From NCBI GenBank assembly GCA_035574235.1, contig DATLZA010000009.1:1-42172 (forward strand): a DNA stretch of 42,172 bases. The letters are read 5' to 3'. The stretch is from Planctomycetota bacterium (lineage in GTDB: Bacteria; Planctomycetota; MHYJ01; JACPRB01). Each line of letters starts with the position of its first letter. The stretch's first letter is position 1. Both the position numbers and the translations under genes were made by a program. The notes under the pieces are model-generated. The model was not told the origin of the DNA. It worked only from the letters and a program-made list of their open reading frames with translations, and did no database searches. Below are positions 9,855 through 40,675 of the stretch, piece by piece.

Positions 9855-10721
9855 CTACGGCTCGGAGCGCAGGCGGAGGAAGGGCTTGCGGTCGAGGAAG
9901 AGCTCGAGATCCTTGCGCAGGGCGCGGGCGTCCGGATAGCGGTCCTCCGGGCGGACGGCCAGGAGGCGCTGCAGGACCGCCTCGAGGGAGCGGGCCAGGC
10001 CCGGCCGGCGCGCCCGCGCCGAGGGACGCCGGGCGTCCAGGTGCTTGCGCACCACGGATTCGGGGGAGCGGCCCTCGAACGGGCGGCGGCCCGTGAGCAT
10101 CTGGTAGAAGGTGACGCCGAGCGAGTAGAGGTCGGAGCGCCCGTCCGCGGGCAGTCCCTGAGCCTGTTCGGGGGAGACGTAGTACGGGGTTCCGAGCACC
10201 GTTCCGTCCTCGCCCAGCTCGCGTTCGCCGGCGGCGCGCGCCAGGCCGAAGTCGGTGATCTTCACCCGTCCGTCCTTGCGGAGGAGGATGTTGGCGGGCT
10301 TAATGTCGCGGTGGACGACGCCCGCCGCATGGGCGTGCTGGAGGGCGCGGGCGACCTCGCGGACGATTTCGGCGGCGCGGCGCACGGGGAACGCGCCGCG
10401 GCGCCGGATCGCCTCCTCCAGGTCCTCGCCTTCGACGTACTCCATCACGATGAAGGGACGGCCCTGTTCCTCGTCCACGTCGTAGATGCGCACGATGTTT
10501 TCGTGGTCCAGGCGGGCGGCGGCCACCGCTTCGCGCTCGAAGCGGGCGGTCTCTTCGGGGTCGGCGGAAAGGTCGCGGGAGAGGATCTTGATGGCGACGC
10601 GGCGGCGGAGGAAGAGGTGCTCCGCGAGATAGACGCTCCCCATCCCCCCCTTGCCCAGGAAGCGCAGGAGCTGGCACTTGCCGAAGGTCTGGCCGACCAG
10701 CGGCGCGGACGTCGGTTCCAT
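9855..10721 (-). CDS. Soluble Ser/Thr protein kinase (PknB-like)
   Basis: A 288-aa protein that is essentially a kinase domain alone. Visible elements are the glycine loop GKGGMG at 23-28, catalytic Lys45, HRD at 137-139, DFG at 157-159 and an SPE version of the APE motif. All catalytic residues are present, so it is probably active. No transmembrane segment or sensor domain follows, so it should be cytosolic. A GGGAGGGG ribosome site precedes the ATG and TATAAT lies 41 nt upstream, so it has its own promoter separate from the larger kinase gene upstream. Substrates are unknown; the FHA protein encoded at 37719-39386 is a speculative partner. Confidence 0.9.
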   Translation of the reverse strand: MEPTSAPLVGQTFGKCQLLRFLGKGGMGSVYLAEHLFLRRRVAIKILSRDLSADPEETARFEREAVAAARLDHENIVRIYDVDEEQGRPFIVMEYVEGEDLEEAIRRRGAFPVRRAAEIVREVARALQHAHAAGVVHRDIKPANILLRKDGRVKITDFGLARAAGERELGEDGTVLGTPYYVSPEQAQGLPADGRSDLYSLGVTFYQMLTGRRPFEGRSPESVVRKHLDARRPSARARRPGLARSLEAVLQRLLAVRPEDRYPDARALRKDLELFLDRKPFLRLRSEP

Positions 10722-10821: not shown

Positions 10822-12669
10822 CTAGCGGCGGGAGGCGCGGGCGGCGTCGATCCGGGCCACGAGCGCCGGGTCGAGCCCTTCGCGGACGGCGGCCAGGCGT
10901 TCGAGGAGCTCGGCCGGGGCGCCCTGGGCGAGAGCCGCCTCGACGAGTTCCCCCAGCCAGGGACGGATTTCGGGGCCGGGGGCGCCGCGGCGCAGGGCCT
11001 CCTCGAGGGCCCCGCGGGCGTCGCCGTCGACCAGGCGGAAGAGGACCAGATCGAGCTCGGTGACGTCGGGCGCGCGGCGCGCGTACTCGGCGATGGAATC
11101 GGCATGGAGGGCGGCCGTGGGGGACGCCCCCGAGGAGGCGGGGCGGCCGTCTCGAAGCCGGAGGCGCGGGCGGGGATCGGCGTCCGCGGCGGCGCGGAAG
11201 CGGGCGACCACGCGCAGGGCCGCCGAGAGCTTCAGCCCCAGGCGGGAGAGCTCCGCGCGCTCGACGGGCGGGGCGGAGGGGTGACGTTCGAGGAGGCGCC
11301 GCAGGACGGGGGCGTAGTCGCGCTCGGCGATGCGGCGGCGGTCTTCTTCGGTCAGGAGATTGGGGCCCGAAGGGGCCGCGGCGGCGCGGACCGGTCCGTC
11401 GGAAGCGGGGCGGATCTGGAGTTTGGAGTGCACGCGGCGGAGGCCCTCGGCGGCTTCGGGGGGTGCGGGATCGCGCCGGGCGGCCTCGCGGTAGAGGGCG
11501 AGCGCGCCGGTCAGGTCGCCCTTGGCCTCGGCCAGGGCGGCGCGGGTGACGAGGTCGCCGCGGGCGGGGGGAGCAGGAGGATCGGCGGGGCCGGTGAGGA
11601 AAAAGGCCAGCACGGCCGCTCCGGCGGCCAGGGCGGCGGCGGTCCAGGCGGCGGCGGGACGTCCGAGGAGGGCGGAGAAGCATCGGGCGGCGAGGCCGGG
11701 GCGCGGCGAAGCGGCGGCCGGACGCAGGAGCGCCGCGGGGCGGGGGCGGGGGAGCGGAGCGCCCTTGAGGAAGGCTTCGAGCTCGCGGGCCATCTGGGCG
11801 GCGGTGGCGGGGCGGCGCTCGGGCTTTTTTTCGAGCGCGCGAAGGATGATCTCGGCGAGCGCATCGGGGAGCCCCGGCGCCAGGAGCCTCGGATCGCGGG
11901 GCTTCTCGTGGATCTGCTTGAAGAGGACGGCCATGTGGCTTTCGGCCACGAAGGGGCGCTGGCCGGTGACCATGAAGTAGAGGCACACGCCCAGGGAGTA
12001 GAGATCGCTGCGCGGGTCGGCGCGGCGGCCTTCCGCCTGCTCGGGGGAGAGGTACCACGGGGTGCCCATGATCGCCCCGGCCACGGTGAGCGTGGTCTTG
12101 TCTTCCGCGTCGAAGGCCAGGCCGAAGTCCACGATCTTCACTTCGCCTTTCGAGGAGATGAGGATGTTGCCGGGTTTGATGTCGCGGTGGACGATGCCTT
12201 CGGCGTGGACGGCCTGCAGGCCGCGGGCGACTTCGAAGGCGATGCGGGCCGCCTCGCGCGGCTCGAGGCGCCCCTTCCGGTCCACGAGGTCCTGGAGGTT
12301 CTCGCCTTCGACGTAGGCCATGACGAGGTAGTGGTAGCCGTCGTCCTCGCCCACGTCGTAGATTTCCACGAGGTTGGGGTGTTCGAGTCGGGCGGCGGAT
12401 TCGGCTTCCCGGCGGAAGCGTCCCACGAGTTCCTCGTTGCGGGTGAGGTCGGGGGGCATGATCTTGACGGCCACGGTCCGGCCGAGCTCGGCGTGGACCG
12501 CCAGATACACGTCCCCCATGCCTCCGCGCCCCAGGCGCTTGAGGAGGCGGCAGGGGCCGATCGTCTTTCCGGCGAGCCGGTCCGGCGTCCCGGCCGACGT
12601 CCGCGTGACGGGTCGGACGGTCGCGCCGGAAGCGGCCGCGCGCCGGGGCGTCGGCGCCTCGGGCGGCAT
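10822..12669 (-). CDS. Transmembrane Ser/Thr protein kinase
   Basis: A 615-aa receptor-like kinase. The kinase domain spans about 38-300 with GRGGMG loop at 47-52, Lys69, HRD at 161-163 and DFG at 181-183, so it appears catalytically complete. An Ala/Pro/Arg-rich juxtamembrane segment leads to one membrane helix at about 338-358. The outer ~255 residues are Ala/Arg/Leu-rich helices that start with a possible TPR-like hairpin, followed by helical sequence I cannot assign. This is the standard layout of bacterial sensor kinases: kinase inside, sensor outside. The second kinase gene follows downstream, suggesting a signalling pair, although each has its own TATAAT promoter. Confidence 0.9.
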   Translation of the reverse strand: MPPEAPTPRRAAASGATVRPVTRTSAGTPDRLAGKTIGPCRLLKRLGRGGMGDVYLAVHAELGRTVAVKIMPPDLTRNEELVGRFRREAESAARLEHPNLVEIYDVGEDDGYHYLVMAYVEGENLQDLVDRKGRLEPREAARIAFEVARGLQAVHAEGIVHRDIKPGNILISSKGEVKIVDFGLAFDAEDKTTLTVAGAIMGTPWYLSPEQAEGRRADPRSDLYSLGVCLYFMVTGQRPFVAESHMAVLFKQIHEKPRDPRLLAPGLPDALAEIILRALEKKPERRPATAAQMARELEAFLKGAPLPRPRPAALLRPAAASPRPGLAARCFSALLGRPAAAWTAAALAAGAAVLAFFLTGPADPPAPPARGDLVTRAALAEAKGDLTGALALYREAARRDPAPPEAAEGLRRVHSKLQIRPASDGPVRAAAAPSGPNLLTEEDRRRIAERDYAPVLRRLLERHPSAPPVERAELSRLGLKLSAALRVVARFRAAADADPRPRLRLRDGRPASSGASPTAALHADSIAEYARRAPDVTELDLVLFRLVDGDARGALEEALRRGAPGPEIRPWLGELVEAALAQGAPAELLERLAAVREGLDPALVARIDAARASRR

Positions 12670-36244: not shown

Positions 36245-37642
36245 TCACCGAGCCGTCGGACGGACGTCCCATCCGTCGACGGTGAATTCTCCGGCCACGC
36301 CGCATTCGAAGCGGAGGGGCTGTTCGAGTCCCGCAGGGCGGTCCTCTTGGGGGTTGGCGTACCGGTCGCTGTCGGAGACGTTGACGAGGACGTTGTTGCG
36401 GACGACGGCACGGTAGCTTTCCGCGTTGCGAAAGAGCGGCCGGGGCTGCCCTTCGCATTCGATGCGGTTGTCCCGCAGGACGATCGTGGAGAAGTCGGTT
36501 CTCGGATTGAAGCCGAAGAGGCCCTCGGTGCGGGGCGTCGCCGTGGTTCGGGTCCGGATGTGGTTGTTGCGGATCTCGAGGCGGTCGTACGGTTCGTTCA
36601 TCCAGACGACGCCGCGGCCCGGGTTGCGCACGAGGTTGTTATGGAAGCGGGCGGGACCGGGGGCGGGCGCGTTGCCGAAGGCCGAGATGAGGTTGCCGTG
36701 GTCCTTCTGGGGATCGAAGTCGAAGAAATTGTGGCTGATTTCGACGCCGTTGCGGACGAATTCGATCGAGTAGCTGTCGCGCATCCAGTTGTGGTGGATG
36801 TGGAACGTCCGGCCGCTGGGGGGCACGGGGCCTCCGGCGTGCTTGGGGATCGAGATCGTGCCGGCGCATACGTTGTGGTCGATTTCGACGTCCGCGTCGT
36901 TCTCGAAGGGGAACTCGATCGAGAAGTTCACGAGGATCGTGTTGTGATGGATGCGGACCCGCTGGCCGAGGCGGCCTTTGATGCCGAAAAAAGAGTCGGC
37001 CGGGTTCGTCTGGGTGCGGACGAAGCGGTTGTTGAAAATCTCGGTGTCGGACGTCCAGACGCAGAAGATGGCTCCGCCGGTGATGCCGCCCTGGGTGCCG
37101 GGGCGTCCGCGCTCCCAGCGTCCTCCGGCGTCGATGAATTCGCAGTCGTGGATCCTGGCGTTCTTCAGGAGGAACGTGCGGATGCCCGTCCAGAGGGTGT
37201 CCTGGATTTTGAGGTGGTGGAAGCGCGCCTCCGGGTTGTTCCAGCCGAAGATCGCGCCGTGGACGCGCGGTCCCCGGAGGGTCATGTGGGAAATCTCGAC
37301 CCGGGCGGCTTTGTCCGGAAGACGCAGCAGGTACGCCTGGGTATCCATCCCCTTGGTGGTCATTTCCGGGTCGGGAAGACGGTCCGTCGAGGGCGTCCAG
37401 GAGGGGGCGGGCGTCAGCACCGTGCGGTCGATCCCGGCGCCCGTGAGGGTCAGGCCCGATTTGAGGTCCAGAGGCCCTTCGAGCTCGTAGGTGCCCGGAG
37501 CCAGGCGGATGAGGGCGCCTTCGGGGGCGTTTCGGACGGCTGTCACGAGGTCCCGGACGGAAGCGACCTCCTGAACGGGGCGCGGGGGATCCGCCTGCGG
37601 GATCGGGCTTCCCAGGAGCCAGGCGAAAAGTAGAGCGCTCAT
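36245..37642 (-). CDS. Exported right-handed parallel beta-helix protein
   Basis: A 465-aa protein with a short signal (about 1-16). It begins with VQEVASVRDLVTAVRNAPEGALIRLAPGTYEL, the usual cap of pectate-lyase-like beta-helices, then many coils with N-rich turns: IHDCEFIDAGG, IFNNRFV, IHHNTILVNF, IDHNVC, IHHNWM, ISHNFF, FHNNLV and IRNNHI. The pattern fits a polysaccharide lyase-like or adhesin fold. No catalytic residues can be assigned. It has its own TATAAT promoter and a GGAAGGTG ribosome site. The neighbouring exported propeller and DUF4091 genes suggest a role in extracellular glycan handling. Confidence 0.8.
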   Translation of the reverse strand: MSALLFAWLLGSPIPQADPPRPVQEVASVRDLVTAVRNAPEGALIRLAPGTYELEGPLDLKSGLTLTGAGIDRTVLTPAPSWTPSTDRLPDPEMTTKGMDTQAYLLRLPDKAARVEISHMTLRGPRVHGAIFGWNNPEARFHHLKIQDTLWTGIRTFLLKNARIHDCEFIDAGGRWERGRPGTQGGITGGAIFCVWTSDTEIFNNRFVRTQTNPADSFFGIKGRLGQRVRIHHNTILVNFSIEFPFENDADVEIDHNVCAGTISIPKHAGGPVPPSGRTFHIHHNWMRDSYSIEFVRNGVEISHNFFDFDPQKDHGNLISAFGNAPAPGPARFHNNLVRNPGRGVVWMNEPYDRLEIRNNHIRTRTTATPRTEGLFGFNPRTDFSTIVLRDNRIECEGQPRPLFRNAESYRAVVRNNVLVNVSDSDRYANPQEDRPAGLEQPLRFECGVAGEFTVDGWDVRPTAR

Positions 37643-37696: not shown

Positions 37697-37726
37697 ATTA
37701 TAACGGCGCCCCTCGCCGTCAGTCGA
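37697..37726 (-). promoter_or_regulatory. Promoter of the beta-helix gene
   Basis: On the minus strand, TCGACT (37726-37721), an 18-bp spacer and perfect TATAAT (37702-37697) lie 54 nt before the ATG at 37642. The -35 overlaps the last codons of the upstream FHA gene. Confidence 0.55.
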
Positions 37727-39386
37727 GGGTCTTGGAAGGATCCTTGGCGGGCCGCAGGCGGACGCCGAGGCCCAGGCAGCGGGGACAGAGGTCCGGCGCC
37801 TGCGGGCCGGAGGCGGTGGGACACCGGCACGGTTCGGCCGTGAAGACGCGCGAAAGGGGGACGCCGCGGAATCCGCCCCGCCGCTTGGAGAAAGCGCCCC
37901 CGCATTCCGGGCAGGTCGTCCATCCGTTCCGGCGGCAGTCGGGGCAGTTCTTGCGCAGCGTGCCGTTTCCCTGATAGCCGTCGATGGAGCAGGTGCGGCA
38001 CTTCGTCGTGACGTCCGCGTCGCCGACCGCCCCGCTCGGGCGGACGCGGCCGTTGACGCAGTGGGGGCACGGAACGGAAACCCATCCGCGGCCCCGGCAG
38101 CTCCGGCACGGAATGCGCCCGTTCCGGCATTCGTCGGCATAGCATCGGGCCTCCCGCCAGGGGGAGCCGCGGCAGGAGGGACACAGGATCGATCCCGAGC
38201 GGGAGCAGGTTTCGCAGGTCACGTCCCGAAAGATCTTCAGTCCCTCGCAGTTGCGGCACTTGACGGTGACGTCGGCGTTTCCGACGGCTCCCGAGGCGCG
38301 CACGCGGCCGCGCCCCTCGCAGACGGGGCAGTTCCGATCCCGCCGTCCTTTTCCCGAGCAATCGGGACAGGTCCGCCTCCCGCCGGTGCAGTCGGTGCAA
38401 TAGACCGCCTCTTTGAGGCTTTCGGCAAGGGCCCGCACGTGCTCCCGGGCGGAAGGGGGACCGCCCTGGGGGGAAGCCTCGAGCAGGGCGCGGTACGCGG
38501 CCTCGTAACCGGTTCCTTCGGAAAACGCCCGGTGGAGCCGGACGAGGAGGGCGGCGTAACGGACGGCGAAAGAGGACGACCTGAGCGCGGCGGCTTCATC
38601 CTGGAGGGAGACATGCTCGGGCCGGTTCCAGTTTCGCACCCAACAGAGAGCTTCCGAAGACGGCCCGGGAGCAGGGCGGGGGCTTTCCATGGGAAGCGGG
38701 GCATCCGACTCCGACCGTTCGCGCGGGAAAAGGGAGCGCGGGAGGGGGCGGACGTCCGGGACCTCGGCGAGGGGGGCGGGTGCGGTTTCCTCCGATCCGC
38801 GGAAGGAAGGGGCCTCCACGAGAGGTGCCGGCGCCGGCGGCGGGGCGGACGTCGAGGAATCAGGAGGGAAAGAGCGGGGGGTGACTTTCAGGACCGGCCG
38901 GGGAGCTTCGGGAGGGATCGACGCGTCCTGTCGCGAAGAAAGCAGGATCAGCAGGACCCCGACGATCCCCGAAACGATCGACGCCGCGGCGAAAACGGGT
39001 CGCCTCCACCCCGGCCGCGCCGGGGCCTCCGGGCGCCTTGGGGAGGGCGGACGCCGCAGGGGCGCCGGCGCCACGGAAGGGTGAGGTTCGACCCGTTCCG
39101 GCTCCTTGCAGACGACCGTTCGGAACTCGACGGAGCCGATCCTGAAGAGGTCCCCTTCCCGAAGCAGGTGCTGTTCGACCCGGCGGCCGTTCACGGCGAT
39201 CAGGCGCTGGCCCGTCAGGTCGCGCAGAACGTATCCTTCCGGAGCGCGCCGGATGACGGCGTGGCGAGGGGCGGCGTCCTTCACCCGGATCGTGGCGTCC
39301 GGGGCGCTTCCGATCGTGACGGCTCCGTCGAGGGGTTCTCCTTCCTCCCCCTGAGGGCCGATCCAAACCAAGCCGAGTTTGTTCAT
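37719..39386 (-). CDS. FHA domain - membrane helix - duplicated cysteine-rich protein
   Basis: A 555-aa protein with an unusual layout. Residues 1-95 form an FHA fold (VTIGSAPDATIRV, PRHAVIRR, YVLRDLTGQRLIAVNG). A membrane helix lies at about 130-150, preceded by arginines, so the N-terminus should be inside. A long Pro/Ala/Ser linker follows to about 245 and a short helical section to 325. The last part (330-537) has 28 cysteines, mostly in CxxC pairs with Gly-rich spacers like the zinc domain of DnaJ, and contains a duplication: SGAVG[ND]ADVT[VT]KCR[NT]C at 365-380 and 451-466. If the topology is right, this domain is outside the cytoplasm. The preferred ATG at 39386 starts the FHA strand; a longer open frame has no support. 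The upstream gene ends 23 bp before. Confidence 0.75.
   Translation of the reverse strand: MNKLGLVWIGPQGEEGEPLDGAVTIGSAPDATIRVKDAAPRHAVIRRAPEGYVLRDLTGQRLIAVNGRRVEQHLLREGDLFRIGSVEFRTVVCKEPERVEPHPSVAPAPLRRPPSPRRPEAPARPGWRRPVFAAASIVSGIVGVLLILLSSRQDASIPPEAPRPVLKVTPRSFPPDSSTSAPPPAPAPLVEAPSFRGSEETAPAPLAEVPDVRPLPRSLFPRERSESDAPLPMESPRPAPGPSSEALCWVRNWNRPEHVSLQDEAAALRSSSFAVRYAALLVRLHRAFSEGTGYEAAYRALLEASPQGGPPSAREHVRALAESLKEAVYCTDCTGGRRTCPDCSGKGRRDRNCPVCEGRGRVRASGAVGNADVTVKCRNCEGLKIFRDVTCETCSRSGSILCPSCRGSPWREARCYADECRNGRIPCRSCRGRGWVSVPCPHCVNGRVRPSGAVGDADVTTKCRTCSIDGYQGNGTLRKNCPDCRRNGWTTCPECGGAFSKRRGGFRGVPLSRVFTAEPCRCPTASGPQAPDLCPRCLGLGVRLRPAKDPSKTLD
37776..38399 (-). repeat. Duplicated CxxC region within the FHA protein gene
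   Basis: Coding for residues 330-537. CxxC pairs occur at 330, 340, 353, 377, 391, 402, 427, 440, 463, 481, 492 and 534, with further spaced cysteines at 415/420 and 520/522. The two halves (about 353-405 and 440-495) share order and a 16-residue core, showing an internal duplication at protein level. Confidence 0.75.
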
Positions 39387-39409: not shown

Positions 39410-40675
39410 TCACTCGACGATGAGGAACCCCGGGCGACCCGCGGTGCGCCCCCCGTCCGGCGCGACGCCGACCGGGAAAAGAGCGTGCAAACCCCGCTCG
39501 AGGCGGATGCCTTCGATCTGCCAGGGCGGTCCGTGGGCCGTTCCGAGCAGGCGGTGTCCGTCGCGGAACTCCACCGCGGTGTACGTCCCCTTGACCTCGG
39601 CGGCGAAGCGCAGAGGGGTGCCGGCCGGGACCTGTCCGCCGTATCCCATGCCGCAGTCGGGCCCATGTCCTCGGCTGCGGTATTCGACGACGGGAGAGGT
39701 CAGGCGCAGGTCGGGCCGGGCGGAATGGTAGGAGCGCCACATCCAGGCGGCGTATTCATCCGGGAGCCAGACCGGCTGGATCATGCCGGAGGCCTCGCGG
39801 ACGGGCGCGATGGGATTCCACGAGCCGACGGGGTTGTAATCGCCCGCCCAGCCGTTCTCCCGGACGACCGGCCGGAGGCGGACGGGCTGTCCCGGCGGCG
39901 GAAGCTCGTCCGGCAGCCTCAGGGCGATGCAGCGGTCGAGGAACCCCATGAAGAAGTTGAATTTCGAATAGATTCCGTGGGGAAAACCGTACGTGTTGGC
40001 CCGGCACGAGAGGTCGGGCGGCGGCGTGGGCCGGTTTTCCACCTGGGCGCGGCGCGCGTCCCCTTCCTCGCGACGGGTCTTCTCCTCGGCGGGCGTGAAC
40101 TCCCACGCGTAGGCGAACGGCACGTTCCGCGTCAGCTCGGGAACCTGGGCCAGTCGATTGGGAAAGGAATCCGTCCACGCGATCACGCGGTCCGGCGCCC
40201 GCCGGTAGAGATCGTGGCCGAGATGACTTCCGTTCTGGCCCAGCCAGCCCACCAGAGGAGCGGTCGCGAGCTCGGGGTGGCGGGTGTCCCGGGCGGCGTG
40301 GACGAGATACCGCAGGAGCAGGTCCATGCTGCCCACGGGATGGCCGAGGGTGTGCCGGCCGTTGCGCTTGTCGTTGTGTCCCAGGTCGTATTCGAAGGGC
40401 CAGGGGACGGTGACGAGCGCGAACCGCCAGAGACGGGCGAGCTCGCGCGGATCGGCGCTGTGGAAGACGAAGCATACGAAGACGCCCCGCACCGCGGGAA
40501 CGTCGGGCGGCAGATAAAGGTGAATCCGGTCCGCGATCTTCCGGAATTCCGCCCAGGACGTGCGGTCGTCGAGTTTCTGTACGGGCAGCCAGCCGGGGGG
40601 GAAGTCCCGTCCGTCGGGAGGCGGGTCGGCCTGGAGCGCGATCAGAAGGACCGCCAGAACGCCCGGAAGAGTCAT
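39410..40675 (-). CDS. Exported protein, possibly alpha/beta-hydrolase-like
   Basis: A 421-aa protein with a signal peptide (about 1-16). The sequence includes VFVCFVFHSADPRELA and APLVGWLGQNGSHLGHDLYRRAPDRVIAW, which have the strand-turn-helix rhythm of an alpha/beta hydrolase or exported esterase. The expected G-x-S-x-G elbow reads G-Q-N-G-S, so the nucleophile is altered or the fold is different. The C-terminal part is beta-rich. No confident family. The ATG lies 2 bp after the PQQ protein stop, with GAGGG upstream in that gene. It is followed by the FHA gene after 23 bp, so the three are probably one transcript. Confidence 0.6.
   Translation of the reverse strand: MTLPGVLAVLLIALQADPPPDGRDFPPGWLPVQKLDDRTSWAEFRKIADRIHLYLPPDVPAVRGVFVCFVFHSADPRELARLWRFALVTVPWPFEYDLGHNDKRNGRHTLGHPVGSMDLLLRYLVHAARDTRHPELATAPLVGWLGQNGSHLGHDLYRRAPDRVIAWTDSFPNRLAQVPELTRNVPFAYAWEFTPAEEKTRREEGDARRAQVENRPTPPPDLSCRANTYGFPHGIYSKFNFFMGFLDRCIALRLPDELPPPGQPVRLRPVVRENGWAGDYNPVGSWNPIAPVREASGMIQPVWLPDEYAAWMWRSYHSARPDLRLTSPVVEYRSRGHGPDCGMGYGGQVPAGTPLRFAAEVKGTYTAVEFRDGHRLLGTAHGPPWQIEGIRLERGLHALFPVGVAPDGGRTAGRPGFLIVE

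Follow-up and report, generated by a model that had tools for sequence, protein, structure and literature searches.

An FHA domain, a predicted membrane helix and a duplicated DnaJ-like cysteine module encoded by a single Planctomycetota gene

The FHA-Cys gene and its product

The window analysed here, a stretch of DNA of 42,172 nucleotides, is contig 9 of the draft assembly of a groundwater planctomycete (4.06 Mb in 203 contigs). Its reverse strand carries a reading frame that is open throughout, starts with ATG and encodes a protein of 555 residues, referred to below as the FHA-Cys protein, with the following parts:

37719..39386 (-), whole gene, 555 residues: FHA domain, membrane helix, Pro-rich linker, helical region and double Cys module, in that order
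39135..39320 (-), FHA domain, residues 23-84, with GR replaced by GS, SRxH by (A)PRH and NGT by RLI at the phosphothreonine-binding positions
38940..38996 (-), single hydrophobic helix VFAAASIVSGIVGVLLILL, residues 131-149, located by hydropathy
38601..38924 (-), Pro-rich linker by composition, residues 155-262, 24% Pro
38403..38600 (-), helical region preceding the Cys modules, residues about 263-328, kept in exported relatives
38151..38408 (-), Cys module 1, residues about 327-412, 12 Cys
37857..38150 (-), Cys module 2, residues 413-510, 12 Cys, 45% identical to module 1
37722..37856 (-), C-terminal tail with 4 Cys (C520/C522 and C534/C537) and the conserved GLGxxLxPxxDPxK end

The GC content at third codon positions (GC3) lies between 0.72 and 0.95 over the full length of the gene, so that every part, from FHA through linker to Cys, is judged to be coding, in a single frame. 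The start methionine lies 23 bases past the stop codon of an upstream gene with an exported-looking product. Both flanking genes, at 36245-37642 and 39410-40675 (-), encode exported-looking proteins, one a beta-helix protein and the other without a Pfam match, whose signal segments share QADPP as their final motif. A gene order conserved with these two neighbours, raised in the initial annotation, was rejected, because L039 and L040, to which the Cys part is most closely related (see below), have different neighbours. Elsewhere in the window, two Ser/Thr protein kinase genes lie next to one another (9855-10721 and 10822-12669, (-)).

The initial annotation had proposed an inner FHA domain, one membrane helix, a long Pro-rich linker and a duplicated domain with 28 cysteines, and each of these was recovered. 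Residues 23-84 match PF00498 with 36.3 bits against a cut-off of 20.7 (E 7.7e-9), and residues 131-149, of mean hydropathy 2.70, are the sole segment hydrophobic enough to span a membrane, the best stretch elsewhere in the protein reaching 0.96. The linker follows at residues 155-262. There are 30 cysteines in total: Cys93 just past the FHA domain, Cys248, and exactly 28 between residues 330 and 537, which fall into two modules of 12 and a tail of four. The two modules are indeed related; a minor correction to their description by CxxC pairs is that, of the 14 pairs of the whole Cys part, 12 are strict CxxC, while residues 415/420 form CxxxxC and 520/522 form CxC. Their 45% identity (BLAST E 1e-15) corresponds to a local score of 173, whereas 500 shuffles with the cysteines fixed in place gave a mean of 60 (sd 13) and a maximum of 106, so the likeness of the modules exceeds what their shared cysteines alone would give. 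A multihaem cytochrome c was ruled out, there being no CxxCH haem site in the protein.

Likeness of the Cys part to DnaJ

DnaJ-type zinc modules are known as parts of cytosolic or organellar chaperones. The likeness of the Cys part to the DnaJ central Cys-rich domain, PF00684, is real though below the Pfam cut-off (28.9 bits against 32.7; E 5.8e-6 per genome); single-module relatives reach E 1.3e-7 at best, and a profile of the family found as its best match in the PDB the solved Cys-rich domain of E. coli DnaJ (1exk, E 1.6e-6). A Pfam scan of the FHA-Cys protein detected no J domain, the Cys-rich likeness being the only one found, and the combination of J, Cys-rich and C-terminal substrate domains that makes a type I J protein is not present. 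From the sub-threshold Pfam score and the PDB match, the Cys part is by its sequence DnaJ-like, as had been suggested at the outset, and a relative of PF00684 that is neither a formal member nor a DnaJ.

The repeated CxxCxGxG pairs are shared with DnaJ and are recognisable by profile, but DnaJ has four Cys pairs and both J and substrate-binding domains, where the FHA-Cys protein has 14 pairs and neither domain; and, unlike DnaJ, the Cys-module family appears to be exported or membrane-anchored. Similar in design are the plastid proteins ZnJ6, LQY1, PSA2 and BSD2, stand-alone DnaJ-type Cys-rich proteins without a J domain, some of them membrane-associated (PMC7865324); these are eukaryotic, however, and have four CxxC and no FHA domain. 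AlphaFold modelling of the Cys part with four relatives gave a pLDDT of 46, too poor to show zinc sites. The model of the exported relative L076 was fair for an N-terminal beta domain and helices and below 50 for the Cys part, and Foldseek with this model returned no match at E <= 0.001, the hits being mostly Hfq/Sm-like over about 43-60 columns at E >= 0.1.

Relatives of the Cys part and its probable export

Relatives of the Cys part were sought in 99 genomes, those related to the host among them. Outside the host the closest matches come from a single genome (G001), whose genes L039, at 46% identity, and L040, at 38%, have the same double module with 29 cysteines each, a signal-peptide-like N terminus and no FHA domain. 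Eight further genes in the host's family have one module only, of about 16 Cys, together with the helical region described above and the corresponding C terminus, here GLGxxLxPxADPxK; most of these start with a signal peptide, and in L044 and L046 an N-terminal helix follows a short or zinc-ribbon-like inner part. Across the family the cysteines stand in near-invariant pairs, and 21 columns are invariant over the 11 proteins of alignment A1. With its helical region, then Cys pairs, then GLGxxLxPxxDPxK end, the FHA-Cys protein has the full family layout, and its fusion makes it an unusual representative of an exported Cys-rich family that has been little studied.

Among 392 genomes of the phylum the family is essentially confined to the host's own GTDB family, where four of the five genomes gave strong profile matches; outside it there was one weak match at E <= 1e-15. 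A search of genome contigs with the FHA-Cys protein found nothing, and the same search with the single-module alignment found four loci, all in Planctomycetota MAGs. The named relatives in the host's family are the Planctomycetota MAGs JACPRB, JACPRC and JAHFOZ, two of them from a groundwater set. These searches covered no more than about half of the species in GTDB, and samples of the phylum.

Single-module proteins have 6 + 2 pairs and double-module proteins 6 + 6 + 2, an architecture which points to a secreted ancestor in which the 12-Cys block became doubled, the FHA part being gained later. Since the closest relatives have no FHA domain and a signal-peptide-like N terminus, the FHA part is read as a lineage-specific addition. 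That FHA and Cys parts might prove to be separate genes in close relatives, named at the outset as a result that would speak against the proposal, is half borne out: the closest relatives have no FHA domain and in other lineages a separate FHA gene adjoins the Cys gene, but in the host the two form one continuous frame.

The position of the Cys part outside the cytoplasm, unexpected for a module of this type, is favoured by the signal-peptide-like N termini of the relatives and by the charge asymmetry around the helix (9 K/R against 4 D/E before it, 5 against 6 after it), which fits an inner N terminus. On hydropathy, charge and relatives together, the FHA-Cys protein is predicted to have its N terminus inside and its C terminus outside. 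That DnaJ-type Cys-rich domains are exported in this class follows also from a protein in another genome of the class (L113:5293-6672 (-), G013:C240), which has a prepilin-like N terminus (N_methyl over cut-off), a Pro/Asp-rich linker, a DnaJ Cys-rich domain well over cut-off and 14 CxxC.

The FHA domain and proteins of similar design

The five most conserved residues of FHA domains have been listed (PMC4238996). When the domain of the FHA-Cys protein is aligned with the others of the host genome, Arg is found changed to Ser, Ser to Ala and Asn to Arg at the phosphothreonine site, Gly and His being kept, so that the set of Gly-Arg, Ser, His and Asn typical of phosphothreonine-binding FHA domains is incomplete. 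Nearly all the other aligned domains keep the Arg, Ser and Asn; a STAS-FHA protein encoded beside a Cys gene in the same genome has lost the site residues too. Judged by these positions, the FHA domain of the FHA-Cys protein is degenerate.

Proteins with an inner FHA domain, a helix and an outer domain are common in this class: about 25 distinct FHA-linker-helix-outer proteins were counted among the retrieved loci, most with Cys-poor outer parts. The FHA-Cys protein is thus one variant of a modular design, and the overall architecture is less unique than first claimed. One such protein even ends in a different Cys module. This protein (G000:C111:1688-3268, L177) and its orthologue (G001:C170:7526-9142, L182) consist of FHA domain, linker, helix and TPR-like part followed by a C-terminal 8-Cys module with CxxC twice, all eight cysteines being kept in both genomes. 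FHA-linker-helix-TPR proteins of the class, G000:C111 and G020:C37 among them, share the inner design of the FHA-Cys protein and differ from it in their canonical FHA domain, their TPR-like outer part and, in the first and its orthologue, the unrelated, smaller Cys module.

FHA genes beside exported Cys-rich genes

About 40 Cys-rich loci in the class were examined, and at seven of them, in three lineages, an FHA gene adjoins an exported Cys-rich gene, the fusion being additional to these. One genus contributes four genomes (G009, G010, G012 and G014) in which an FHA gene directly follows an exported Cys-rich gene of a broader kind, with signal peptide, KDG-type N-terminal domain, helices and Cys pairs; where the FHA gene is complete, its product has a linker and helix too. 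The FHA partners at L108, L109 and L111 keep GR, SRxH and NGT. G020 has a lipoprotein-like Cys gene with an FHA-helix-TPR gene after it, and in the host (G000:C153) and G001 (C134) a STAS-FHA gene comes after a single-module gene, with gaps of about 27 and 45 bases respectively. Taking 14 FHA genes among about 3600, at least three lineages would be expected by chance with a probability of roughly 0.0005 to 0.003, a figure that is indicative only, the pattern having been spotted before counting and the gene number being estimated.

Given such adjoining genes in three lineages besides the fusion, the pairing of FHA and exported Cys proteins is probably functional. In an FHA tree, built on few columns, the domain of the FHA-Cys protein does not group with those of the neighbouring-gene proteins, so the couplings look independent; a direct fusion of neighbouring FHA and Cys genes was rejected on this tree.

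An arrangement conserved in two genera of the family (L042:4771-7200 and L047:4447-6801) places a STAS-FHA gene after an exported single-module Cys gene, and here too the FHA domain lacks the phosphothreonine-site residues.

Alternative explanations

It would be tempting to see in this architecture a classical phospho-signalling receptor, its FHA domain binding phosphothreonine on a kinase or partner and coupled to the outer module. There is an FHA domain, Ser/Thr kinases are encoded in the genome, two of them in the window, and the FHA partners at the three loci named above have intact binding residues; but GS, A and RLI stand at the corresponding positions in the FHA-Cys protein and the STAS-FHA neighbours have likewise lost theirs. 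With Arg, Ser and Asn gone such a receptor is quite improbable, and the transmembrane signalling envisaged in the initial annotation is disfavoured in its phospho-dependent form. The main rival is an envelope thiol-disulfide factor, whose CxxC pairs would alternate between the dithiol and disulfide states. Chemistry of this sort has been reported for DnaJ-type zinc domains, as weak thiol-reductase activity of the zinc domain of DnaJ itself (PMC4428491) and oxidising activity of the thylakoid DnaJ-like ZnJ6 (PMC7865324), and CxxC motifs here are predicted to lie outside the cytoplasm, where the exported thiols could be oxidised to disulfides instead of binding zinc. The spacing of the cysteines and the glycines nevertheless fit zinc sites, the Cys pairs are near-invariant across the family and neither a Dsb nor a thioredoxin gene was identified next to the FHA-Cys gene, so that this reading too is held to be unlikely.

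The inner-ring proteins of type III secretion (SctD/YscD/PrgH) also combine an inner FHA fold, one helix and an outer part, and the fold of PrgH is likewise thought not to bind phosphothreonine (PMC3635987). PF16697 (Yop-YscD_cpl) does match the FHA-Cys protein, narrowly clearing the cut-off of 33.2 with 33.7 bits, but it matches other FHA proteins as well, STAS-FHA included. The NCBIfam SctD model does not match, the outer part consists of Cys modules where SctD has ring-building domains, and secretion genes, the context in which these proteins occur, were not seen nearby; membership of this family is therefore exceedingly improbable. An artefact in which the assembly joined an FHA gene to a Cys gene would account for the finding of the fusion in a single draft genome, but it is very hard to reconcile with one continuous frame of uniform codon composition, a junction that makes sense as helix and linker and a gene embedded in a 42 kb contig.

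Proposed role

The reading preferred here, to which we give about an even chance, is of a modular single-pass protein with an exported multi-zinc Cys module outside and a phosphorylation-independent FHA dock inside; its topology, metal content, protein binding and docking are what we infer from the comparisons above. The outer part would be a doubled version of an exported, DnaJ-type Cys-rich module peculiar to the lineage, most likely binding about one zinc per four cysteines, about seven in all, and serving as a rigid protein-binding scaffold or as a holdase for exported proteins. Linker and helix would tether it to the cytoplasmic FHA fold, which, with its phosphothreonine-binding residues lost, most likely positions that module at a partner or assembly in the cytoplasm. 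Relatives make the module as a secreted or anchored protein that has no FHA domain, sometimes with an FHA gene adjoining.

More tentatively, the FHA-Cys protein might be the one-piece version of an undescribed Planctomycetota envelope system whose DnaJ-type multi-zinc modules are exported and controlled by FHA proteins on the inner side, and might relay information or position through the membrane with no recognition of phosphothreonine. A lineage that exports many DnaJ-type zinc modules, ties them to the membrane and repeatedly pairs them with FHA domains would point to an envelope system for handling proteins or metals, of which no description was found in the literature searched; nor did the part of the literature covered hold anything on the combination of FHA and DnaJ Cys-rich domains in Planctomycetes.

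Groups of Cys-rich genes were also observed. At L044:4986-8849 (G004:C175) two such genes share a strand and are separated by 9 bases, the second having a different arrangement of 28 Cys, and at L110:4846-8955 (G018:C265) the broader exported Cys-rich protein is present as three tandem paralogues.
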